Below, one piece after another: positions 50,013 to 53,228 of a stretch of 64,000 nucleotides of DNA. Each line of letters opens with the position of its first letter. Position 1 is the first letter of the stretch. This stretch comes from Cyanobacteria bacterium M_surface_10_m2_119. GTDB lineage: Bacteria; Cyanobacteriota; Cyanobacteriia; PCC-6307; Cyanobiaceae. Below the pieces are notes generated by a model. That model was not told the DNA's origin, did no database searches, and saw only the letters and a list, made by a program, of their open reading frames with translations. The stretch is taken from the NCBI GenBank assembly GCA_016882525.1, contig VGPU01000007.1:1-64000 (forward strand), read 5' to 3'. Both the position numbers and the translations under genes were made by a program.

Positions 50013-53000
50013 ATGCCGCGTTCCGAGATGGCCAGCGCGCCGGGCCAGCCAGCTCGGGCTGATGCCGATCAGGCCTGGATCCTGCTCCAGGAGCTCGATC
50101 GCCAGATCGACGCGGTGGTGCTGCAGCGCCAGCATCCGATCACCGGCCTGCTGCCGGCCAGCACGGCCCACACGGTGCATGGCAACTACGGCGATGCCTG
50201 GGTGCGCGACTGCGTCTACTCGATCCAGTGCGTCTGGGGGCTGGCCCTGGCCCACCGGCGTCTGCGCGGGGCCAGCCGGCGCGTGTTCGAGCTGGAGCAG
50301 CGGGTGCTGCTGCTGATGCGCGGGCTGATGAACGCCATGGAGCGCCAGGCCACCAAGGTGGAGCGCTTCAAGCACAGCCTGCACCGGCTGGACGCCATCC
50401 ACGCCAAGTTCGACACCGCCAGCGGCAACCCGGTGGTGCCCGACGACGGCTGGGGCCACCTGCAGCTCGACGCCACCGGTGTGTTCCTGCTGCAGCTGGC
50501 CCAGCTCACCCGCGCCGGCCTGGTGGTGGTGCGCTCCAGCCACGAGCGCGACTTCGTCCAGAACCTGGTGTACTACGTCGCCCAGGCCTACCGGGTGGCC
50601 GACTACGGGATCTGGGAGCGGGGGGACAAGGGCAACCACGGCCTGCCGGAGCGCAACGCCAGCTCGATCGGCCTGGTGAAAGCGGCCCTGGAGTCCCTGG
50701 AAGGGCTGGATCTCTACGGCCCCCATGGCGATGGCAGCCACTGCCTGGTGATCCCCCACGACGCGATCGTGCGCCTGCGCCGGGCTCTGGAGGCCCTGCT
50801 GCCGCGCGAATCGGCCAGCAAGGAGGTCGACGCCGCCTGCCTGTCGGTGATCGGCTACCCGGCCTGGGCCGTCGACGACGCGCAGCTGACGGAGCGCACC
50901 CGGGCGAAGATCCGAGCCCAGCTGGGCGGTGGCTACGGCTACAAGCGCTTCCGCCGCGATGGCCACCAGACCGTGGTGGAGGACCACACCCGACTGCACT
51001 ACGAGCGGGAGGAACTGGCCCAGTTCGAGCACATCGAGTGCGAGTGGCCCCTGTTCTGGGCCTATGAACTGGTGACGGCCTGCTGCGAGGAGCGCTGGCA
51101 GGAGGCCCGCCAGTGGCGTCAGCGCCTCGCCAGTGTCTCGGTGAGCATCGACGGGGCGGCCCTGCTGCCCGAGCTCTACCGGGTGCCGGAGGCGGCCGTG
51201 GAGGCCGAGCGGCTGCAGCCCGGAAGCCAGCCCAGGGCGGCGAACGAAAACGTGCCCCTGCTCTGGACCCAGAGCCTCACCTGGCTGGGCGACCTGCTCC
51301 TGGCGGGCCTGATCACACCGGCTGATCTCGACCCCAGCGGCCGGCGACGGCCGGAACCCCCAGGGGCTGCGGAGGTGCTGGTGGCCCTGGTCCCCTCCGA
51401 TGCCGCCGTGGCCGAGGCCCTGGAGGCCCATGGCCTGCCCCAGGCCGGTCCCGCAGCCATCCGCATCGGCAGTTCCCAGGATCTGGCGGCCTGCCTGGCC
51501 GCGGTGGGCGCCAACGCGCGGCTCGGGCTGAGCGGTCACCCCCCGGGACGGATGGAAACCCTCGCCACCGCCCGCCTCTACCGCCGGCCCAGCCGCTCGG
51601 GCGGCGTGGAGCAGCTGGCCTTCCTGCCAGCGGTGCTTGAGGAGGGCACCTTCTATCTGGCAGACGATCCCGAACAGCTGGTGGATGCGGTGGTGGGGGA
51701 ACTGCGGCTCCTGCAGCGCCACTGGCGCGGCCAGGGCTCGCCCCTGCTGCTGATCCCGGTGCCCGCCGCGGCCTTCCACGCCAGCCCAAGCACCTTCCTC
51801 GGCCTCGGCGAGCAGCTGCGCAACGGCACGATCGACGGCGTGCGCGTGGAGCTAGCCCCCCTCGAGGCGTTGGCCGACCGGGCCTCCTGGGTGGAGCTGC
51901 CAGCCGCCGCGGCTCCGGCCGCCCCCGCGGCGCCCCCGGCCAGCGTGCCCCTGCAGGCCAGCCGCCGGCAGGCGCCCCTCTCGGCCGCCGAAGAGCAGGC
52001 CCTGGAGCGGGAGGAGATCTCGATCGGCGAGCTGGCCGATCGGCTCTGGCAAAGCACCTCCCTGGCGGAGCAGGCCGAGGTGCTGGAGCAGCTGGGCCGG
52101 CGCCTGGGCAGCGGCGCCCTGCTGCAGGGGCCGGGGAACGGGGAACCGGTGGCCCTGCGGGGGCTGTTGGAGGAGGTCTACAGACGGGGGCTGGCCGAGG
52201 GCGACTGGGACGTGGTGCGGCGGATGGCCGGCCAGTTGGAGCTGGTGCATCCCCAGCTCGAGGATGCCCTCACCGACCTGCTCGTCCGCCAGAAACAGCT
52301 GGTGGTGGGCCGCAACTACACCGCCGATTCCCTGATCAACGAACCCCAGGACAGTGCCACGATCGCGGCGATGATCCGGCGTTTCAGCGGCGAGGACGGC
52401 CGGGAGTGGATGCTCCAGCAGGAACTGCTGCTGGCCCTCGACGGCCTGGCCCGCCACGAGCCCAGCCTGCTCAGCGGCAGTCTCACCCTGCAGCTGGGCC
52501 AGTTGCTGCTGCTGCTCACCAGTGAGCTGGCCAGCGAGGCCGACCTCAATCCGATCGATGCATTCGAGCGACTGTGCCAACAGCCGCCCCATGCCATCCG
52601 CCGGCGACTGCGGGCGGTGCTGGCGGACGTGGACCATGCCCGGGCAGCCCTGCAGCGCAAGGAACAGCTGCACGTGAGCGGCCGCGTGCGCTGGACGGCC
52701 CCCGACCCGCTCGAGGAGCTCGCCAGCGGGGAATGCTGGCTCCAGCACCGGATGCGCATGGGAGCACTCGGCCGGGTGCCCCGCAATTTCTATGCGGGCG
52801 TCTGGGAACTTCTCCACCACTGCCAGGGCATCGTGATCGGCGACAAGCTGGAGAAGCGCAACCGGCTCGAGAGCGGCCCCCTGCTCAGCGAGAAAACGGC
52901 CGGGGAGCGCAATTTCGCCGCCCTGGTGGAGCACCTGCTGGGCAAGATCGAGGCCCCCGAGTACCGCCAGCTCTGCACCGAGACCCTGATCACCCTGATC

Positions 53001-53228
53001 GCCTTCGTGGAAGGCAATCCCCAGGTGCGCTTCGACGACGACCTGGCCCTCGACGTGGTGATCGGCCACGCCGTGCGGGTCGGCTGGCAGCAGAGCCATC
53101 CCCAGGTGCCCGCCGATGCCTACGGACAGCACAAGGCCGCGGCCTGGGATCGCTTCTACCGCGCCTCCCCCGCCGACTGCCGCCGCTGGCAGCTGGAGGC
53201 CCTCAAGGAGTTGAGCCTGGGCGGCTGA
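50013..53228 (+). CDS. Phosphorylase kinase alpha/beta-like (GH15-related) protein
   Basis: HPITGLLPAS...DAWVRDCVYSIQCVWGLALA, WGHLQLDATGVFLLQLAQLT, ADYGIWERGDKGNHGLPERNASSIGLVKAALE, SASKEVDAACLSVIGYPAWAVDD, FEHIECEWPLFWAYEL, LGRVPRNFYAGVWELLHHCQGI, PEYRQLCTETLITL; collinear with PHKA/PHKB as remembered. Confidence 0.92.
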   Translation: MPRSEMASAPGQPARADADQAWILLQELDRQIDAVVLQRQHPITGLLPASTAHTVHGNYGDAWVRDCVYSIQCVWGLALAHRRLRGASRRVFELEQRVLLLMRGLMNAMERQATKVERFKHSLHRLDAIHAKFDTASGNPVVPDDGWGHLQLDATGVFLLQLAQLTRAGLVVVRSSHERDFVQNLVYYVAQAYRVADYGIWERGDKGNHGLPERNASSIGLVKAALESLEGLDLYGPHGDGSHCLVIPHDAIVRLRRALEALLPRESASKEVDAACLSVIGYPAWAVDDAQLTERTRAKIRAQLGGGYGYKRFRRDGHQTVVEDHTRLHYEREELAQFEHIECEWPLFWAYELVTACCEERWQEARQWRQRLASVSVSIDGAALLPELYRVPEAAVEAERLQPGSQPRAANENVPLLWTQSLTWLGDLLLAGLITPADLDPSGRRRPEPPGAAEVLVALVPSDAAVAEALEAHGLPQAGPAAIRIGSSQDLAACLAAVGANARLGLSGHPPGRMETLATARLYRRPSRSGGVEQLAFLPAVLEEGTFYLADDPEQLVDAVVGELRLLQRHWRGQGSPLLLIPVPAAAFHASPSTFLGLGEQLRNGTIDGVRVELAPLEALADRASWVELPAAAAPAAPAAPPASVPLQASRRQAPLSAAEEQALEREEISIGELADRLWQSTSLAEQAEVLEQLGRRLGSGALLQGPGNGEPVALRGLLEEVYRRGLAEGDWDVVRRMAGQLELVHPQLEDALTDLLVRQKQLVVGRNYTADSLINEPQDSATIAAMIRRFSGEDGREWMLQQELLLALDGLARHEPSLLSGSLTLQLGQLLLLLTSELASEADLNPIDAFERLCQQPPHAIRRRLRAVLADVDHARAALQRKEQLHVSGRVRWTAPDPLEELASGECWLQHRMRMGALGRVPRNFYAGVWELLHHCQGIVIGDKLEKRNRLESGPLLSEKTAGERNFAALVEHLLGKIEAPEYRQLCTETLITLIAFVEGNPQVRFDDDLALDVVIGHAVRVGWQQSHPQVPADAYGQHKAAAWDRFYRASPADCRRWQLEALKELSLGG

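Follow-up and report, generated by a model that had tools for sequence, protein, structure and literature searches.

Introduction

The closest described relatives of the protein analysed here are the alpha and beta subunits of human phosphorylase kinase (PhK). PhK alpha carries Glu185 and Glu371, the catalytic pair of a seemingly intact glucoamylase site, whereas PhK beta lacks some of the catalytic residues (PMC10978961). Neither human PhK nor the alpha-gamma-delta complex was active on maltose, isomaltose or glycogen, which poses the puzzle of an intact-looking site in PhK alpha with no detectable activity; acarbose nevertheless binds PhK and increases its kinase activity (PMC10978961). In the open-access literature we found no experimental or functional work on a cyanobacterial PhK-like gene; the abstract of one Synechococcus proteome paper names 'glycogen phosphorylase kinase', where the results section of the same paper has glgP.

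We analysed a 64,000-nucleotide stretch of a Cyanobiaceae assembly (contig VGPU01000007.1), hereafter the window, in which an original prediction made from the DNA alone had described one open reading frame (ORF) as a full-length bacterial homologue of the PhK alpha/beta regulatory subunit.

Results

The window encodes a full-length PhK alpha/beta homologue

The ORF at 50013-53228 (+) runs unbroken from an ATG at 50013 to a stop codon ending at 53228, encodes 1071 residues, and is both single-copy in the genome and the sole GH15-type gene of the assembly. An in-frame TTG at 49947 offers a longer start with 22 additional residues; the N-termini of homologues are variable and begin near the chosen ATG. 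All of the PHKA/PHKB-like blocks quoted in the original prediction are present in the translation. Using phmmer against all PDB chains, we found matches to human PhK alpha (E = 7.5e-156; query residues 25-618, 668-873 and 908-997) and human PhK beta (E = 9.8e-132; query residues 15-843 and 892-1021) and to no other chain. A profile of 66 cyanobacterial homologues scored 1048 bits against PhK alpha and 876 bits against PhK beta, and up to E = 10 it matched nothing else in the PDB, glucoamylases included. In Pfam, the protein matches PF00723 (GH15) above the cut-off over residues 30-829 and PF19292 (KPBB_C, the phosphorylase b kinase C-terminal domain) over residues 842-1067, at 52536-53213 (+), with an E-value of 9.8e-90 and 300 bits versus a cut-off of 27, which confirms the C-terminal PhK match that had been claimed. 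Both domains are present in 32 of 32 homologues scanned. The extension of PhK homology beyond the GH15-like domain is thus strongly supported by sequence, Pfam and fold, and similarity to a generic barrel alone is excluded by the full-length sequence, KPBB_C and fold matches. Judged from the alignments, a chance origin of the similarity is excluded, and it is close to certain that the protein is a PhK alpha/beta homologue. The gene joins a family that Pfam already names, in which the C-terminal domain is already modelled under the PhK name.

Two AlphaFold2 models, built from 32 and 66 sequences, had mean pLDDT values of 80.9 and 82.8 and pTM values of 0.77 and 0.79, respectively, and align end to end with PhK cryo-EM chains. 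For both models, eight human PhK alpha/beta chains ranked at the top of a Foldseek search of the PDB (E about 1e-58 to 1e-51, 1037-1125 aligned columns, TM 0.67-0.74), followed by single-domain glycosidases of the glucoamylase type. The rmsd between model and PhK chains was 13-15 Å, so that the domains are either arranged differently from those of PhK or positioned with some uncertainty. The GH15-like (alpha/alpha)6 domain, D1, spans approximately residues 20-445 (50070-51347, +) and matches the solved glycosidase 7c24 with a TM of 0.73 by target length and an E-value of 2e-7. With GH15 glucoamylases and exo-glycosidases (Aspergillus 1dog, 7c24 and the dextran dextrinase 9ju0) D1 shares this fold and the acid/base pair; the cyanobacterial protein differs from them in matching none in the PDB by sequence, in an Arg after the acid, and in about 600 extra C-terminal residues. 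D1 is followed by a D2-like region (residues ~446-633; 51348-51911, +) with limits inferred from the model, an Ala/Pro-rich linker of low pLDDT (residues ~634-657; 51912-51983, +), and a helical D3/D4-like region (residues ~658-841; 51984-52535, +) that leads into KPBB_C. Low-confidence residues in the better model are 1-9, 53-58, 313-329 and 634-642, and the stretches 53-58 and 313-329 lie within the modelled active-site region.

The protein thus shares with PHKA/PHKB (PF00723 plus PF19292) whole-length sequence and fold, including a GH15-like D1, a D2-D5 body and KPBB_C. It differs from PhK in being encoded by one gene instead of an alpha/beta pair and in lacking a C-terminal CaaX farnesylation motif, as no Cys occurs in the last 5 residues of the 66 homologues. 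Furthermore, the cyanobacterial protein lacks the two long regulatory inserts specific to PhK alpha (residues 621-745 and 967-1042), and its linker occupies the place of the former. Nor is a gamma/delta kinase module apparent from a kinase-domain scan of the genome, in which the matches above the cut-off were partial, scoring 53-57 bits and spanning about 110-170 of the 263 positions.

Relation to the human subunits

Over its first 595 aligned residues, human PhK alpha is 52-57% identical to the cyanobacterial proteins among the best 80 GTDB matches, all of which are cyanobacterial loci. In the same alignment, human alpha is 54-55% identical to freshwater cyanobacteria versus 48% to human beta, and 42% identical to the fast-evolving lineage of the window. 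We also built a tree in which human alpha and beta were the only eukaryotic members, represented by the stretches aligned by phmmer and so without their far C-termini; both human sequences fell among the cyanobacteria (support 91/90) on long branches and with an unresolved backbone. Cyanobacterial monophyly was not rejected (AU p = 0.37). Such a tree does not settle donor versus recipient, and we claim no direction of transfer from it.

The predicted active site is invariant

Glu185 and Glu371 of PhK alpha align with Glu202 (50616-50618, +) and Glu387 (51171-51173, +) of the cyanobacterial protein, the predicted general acid and general base. Inspection of these positions, as had been proposed, showed that both Glu are invariant, first in a set of 50 homologues (50 of 50) and then in the larger alignment (66 of 66); equivalents are present in all 80 named species checked, although the base motif reads PEI or PEV in place of PEL in 6 of the 80. 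The cyanobacterial protein therefore resembles PhK alpha, which has both Glu, and differs from PhK beta, which has Lys at the base position. Additional GH15-motif positions are invariant across the 66 homologues (R65, D66, W147, Q151, D153, R315, D316, W418 and Q420). In the same set, D1 is the most conserved region, with 30% of its residues invariant versus 5-18% elsewhere, and the D2-like region is the least conserved, with 5%. That the strongest constraint falls on D1 together with invariant catalytic Glu fits an active site that is used, and the alignment favours a retained ancestral glucan activity. The residue immediately after the acid, Arg203 (50619-50621, +), is also invariant and is Arg in both PhK alpha and PhK beta, in contrast to the Glu found in short cyanobacterial GH15 proteins; Aspergillus glucoamylase likewise has Glu here (E180). 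An Arg at this position may alter acceptance on the leaving-group side. No signal peptide was apparent at any homologue N-terminus inspected.

The short GH15 proteins are single-domain proteins of ~440 residues, with loci at L153:3595-4911, L154:3845-5158, L155:3154-4467, L156:2998-4341 and L157:3094-4428. Their only sequence matches in the PDB are PhK alpha/beta (1.4e-13). Among stand-alone proteins, they appear to be the nearest relatives of PhK D1. They have WVRDN, HWE(E), CPELYY and LLWTQ-type motifs in common with the PhK-like protein; they differ from it in lacking D2-D5 and a 7-residue insert after the acid, as well as in the Glu that follows the acid. Short GH15 genes are rare (18 of 390 genomes) and are neither linked to nor exclusive with the PhK-like gene. 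Replacement of the PhK-like gene by a short GH15 gene in non-carriers is unsupported, as 9 of the 18 have the PhK-like gene and 9 do not.

The gene is ordinary for its lineage and dispensable

Raw matches occurred in 240 of 390 Cyanobacteriia genomes, from which we subtracted 5 weak short-GH15 matches and 1 relic to arrive at 234 carriers (60%). The relic, at L152 (G143) 4353-4985, retains only query residues 115-333 in recognisable form and is 71% identical to a homologue. Carriers have the gene at full length and nearly always in one copy; a few fragmented assemblies, a minority, contain two partial matches each. The gene is absent from small Cyanobiaceae genomes (1.6-1.9 Mb), and it was not found in the non-photosynthetic relatives sampled. 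A scan for KPBB_C across 194 genomes of the phylum detected it in 45, every one of them from this same class; of 14 control genomes, only Synechococcus elongatus had it. The possibility of a mobile or phage gene was rejected, as plasmids, phages and viral contigs contained no match. The gene is ordinary for its lineage.

In two Cyanobiaceae genomes, at L169 (G241) 5327-7229 and L170 (G067) 5497-7400, the order tgt-wecG-oxidoreductase-CNNM is kept and the PhK-like gene is cleanly gone. These genomes are natural deletion mutants that retain wecG. Together with absence from about 40% of Cyanobacteriia, they indicate that the PhK-like gene is dispensable.

wecG is the only deeply recurrent neighbour

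A gene for a WecG/TagA/CpsF-family glycosyltransferase at 49252-49962 (-) diverges from the PhK-like gene, their starts lying 50 bp apart. Throughout the family the order tgt - wecG - PhK-like - Gfo/Idh/MocA - CNNM is kept, a constancy that makes it say little, and wecG is divergent beside the PhK-like gene at 30 of 30 same-family loci. Among 20 loci from other families, wecG lies head-to-head upstream in 5, tgt and CNNM never occur nearby, and the Gfo/Idh/MocA query gave one weak match in a different orientation. A conserved operon was accordingly rejected: outside the family only wecG specifically recurs, and it is the only deeply recurrent neighbour found. In named species, wecG adjoins the gene at every Microcoleaceae, Oscillatoriaceae and Laspinemataceae locus whose flank is long enough; Nostocaceae and Calotrichaceae loci never show this adjacency. 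In both genomes of family f11 the neighbouring wecG is the sole WecG; across the 390 genomes, WecG is present in 361 versus 234 for the PhK-like gene. The pairing with wecG is best read as ancestral and is possibly functional. We found no glycogen gene physically linked to the PhK-like gene. Near the locus, the window also encodes, at 55608-56981 (+), a family 2 glycosyltransferase that weakly resembles the HpnB and CruG models, under their cut-offs.

Glycogen phosphorylase does not track the PhK-like gene

We defined classical GlgP as a match to TIGR02093 at E <= 1e-120. Of the 234 carriers, 41 had no GlgP, whereas 141 of the 156 non-carriers had it; these counts are uncorrected for kinship, and absences may be inflated by draft assemblies. 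A required pairing of the PhK-like protein with GlgP is rejected on these counts, and we place no weight on the weak negative association (Fisher p = 0.038, kinship ignored). The full-length PhK homology of the original prediction stands; a link to glycogen phosphorylase receives no backing from co-occurrence. In a subset of 44 genomes, mostly complete assemblies, 8 carriers had only a divergent GT35 match and no TIGR02093 match (G018, G025, G094, G097, G178, G277, G289 and G383, including families f32 and f25). Separately, at G305:C1:5566086-5568222 a classical glgP appears as two matches with in-frame TGA and TAG codons and is apparently broken.

Discussion

We favour, at a probability of roughly one in two, a reading in which the PhK-like protein is an alpha-glucan enzyme of the GH15 type that works without a kinase and whose PhK D2-D5 body serves as an oligomerisation or regulatory module. 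The protein would be soluble, probably cytosolic, and orthologous to the ancestor that PhK alpha and beta share. Its D1 would be an inverting alpha-glucosidase domain, with Glu202 as acid and Glu387 as base; the ligand, most likely also hydrolysed there, would be an alpha-glucan inside the cell or an alpha-glucoside formed from one. The D2-D5 body would assemble the protein into oligomers, tune D1, or both. In eukaryotes this body would later have gained a kinase (gamma) and calmodulin (delta), with beta losing its base. We infer the catalysis, substrate, oligomerisation, intracellular location and evolutionary direction in this account from full-length PhK similarity in sequence and fold, the match of D1 to glycosidase 7c24, the invariant catalytic Glu, and the base, which PhK alpha retains and PhK beta has replaced by Lys. 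There is precedent in an archaeal mutant lacking a GH15 glucoamylase, whose glycogen phenotype was the one to be expected if the enzyme is catabolic (PMC11046441). Against this reading are the Arg in place of the Glu that follows the acid in short GH15 proteins, the low confidence with which parts of the active-site region are modelled, and a gene that is dispensable and has no physical link to glycogen genes.

The main rival to an enzyme is a non-catalytic glucan or oligosaccharide sensor or scaffold, in which D1 would bind sugar in a conserved pocket that does not turn it over, and D2-D5 would relay the signal to a partner enzyme or keep an assembly in place. Human PhK, with the alpha site intact, cut none of three substrates (PMC10978961), which shows that conserved Glu are no proof of catalysis and is the reason that we rank a sensor second. 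The stimulation of PhK by acarbose (PMC10978961), the Arg beside the acid where short GH15 proteins have Glu, and the large, conserved D2-D5 body also point this way. However, Glu387 is strictly conserved in every cyanobacterial sequence inspected, while beta, apparently free of catalysis, lost the base, and no partner gene is conserved except wecG; we consider a sensor possible but the less probable of the two. That neighbour in turn suggests a role in the envelope or exopolysaccharide, where the protein would trim or bind a glucose-containing glycan made with the head-to-head glycosyltransferase. The divergent wecG at all same-family loci and at a quarter of distant ones, its adjacency throughout three other families, its status as sole WecG in f11, and the loss of the other window neighbours outside the family are consistent with such a role. 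Yet the adjacency may be merely ancestral, it is lacking in Nostocaceae and Calotrichaceae, two genomes delete the PhK-like gene and retain wecG, WecG is far more widespread, and the protein has no visible export signal, which together make an envelope role improbable. A true PhK-like regulatory subunit, in control of a Ser/Thr kinase with glycogen phosphorylase as its target, would explain the full-length homology and fold, and protein-kinase-domain matches do exist in the genome. With those matches partial, the CaaX tail and both long alpha-specific inserts absent, and GlgP distributed without regard to the gene, we regard such a subunit as very improbable.

If the preferred reading of a kinase-free alpha-glucan enzyme is extended to PhK itself, the alpha/beta body would be a bacterial kinase-free alpha-glucan enzyme or sensor with an unusual substrate (e.g., phosphorylated or of the glucoside type), which eukaryotes acquired from cyanobacteria or a related source, with the kinase added afterwards. 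We consider this extension unlikely at present; if it is true, the same unusual substrate would explain why the intact PhK alpha site does not cut maltose, isomaltose or glycogen. A natural single-subunit, kinase-free version in many cyanobacteria would make the puzzle posed by PhK alpha testable with a single gene, its protein and its knockout. Furthermore, its conserved active site and its independence from glycogen phosphorylase offer a handle on the role that the protein had before attachment of the kinase.
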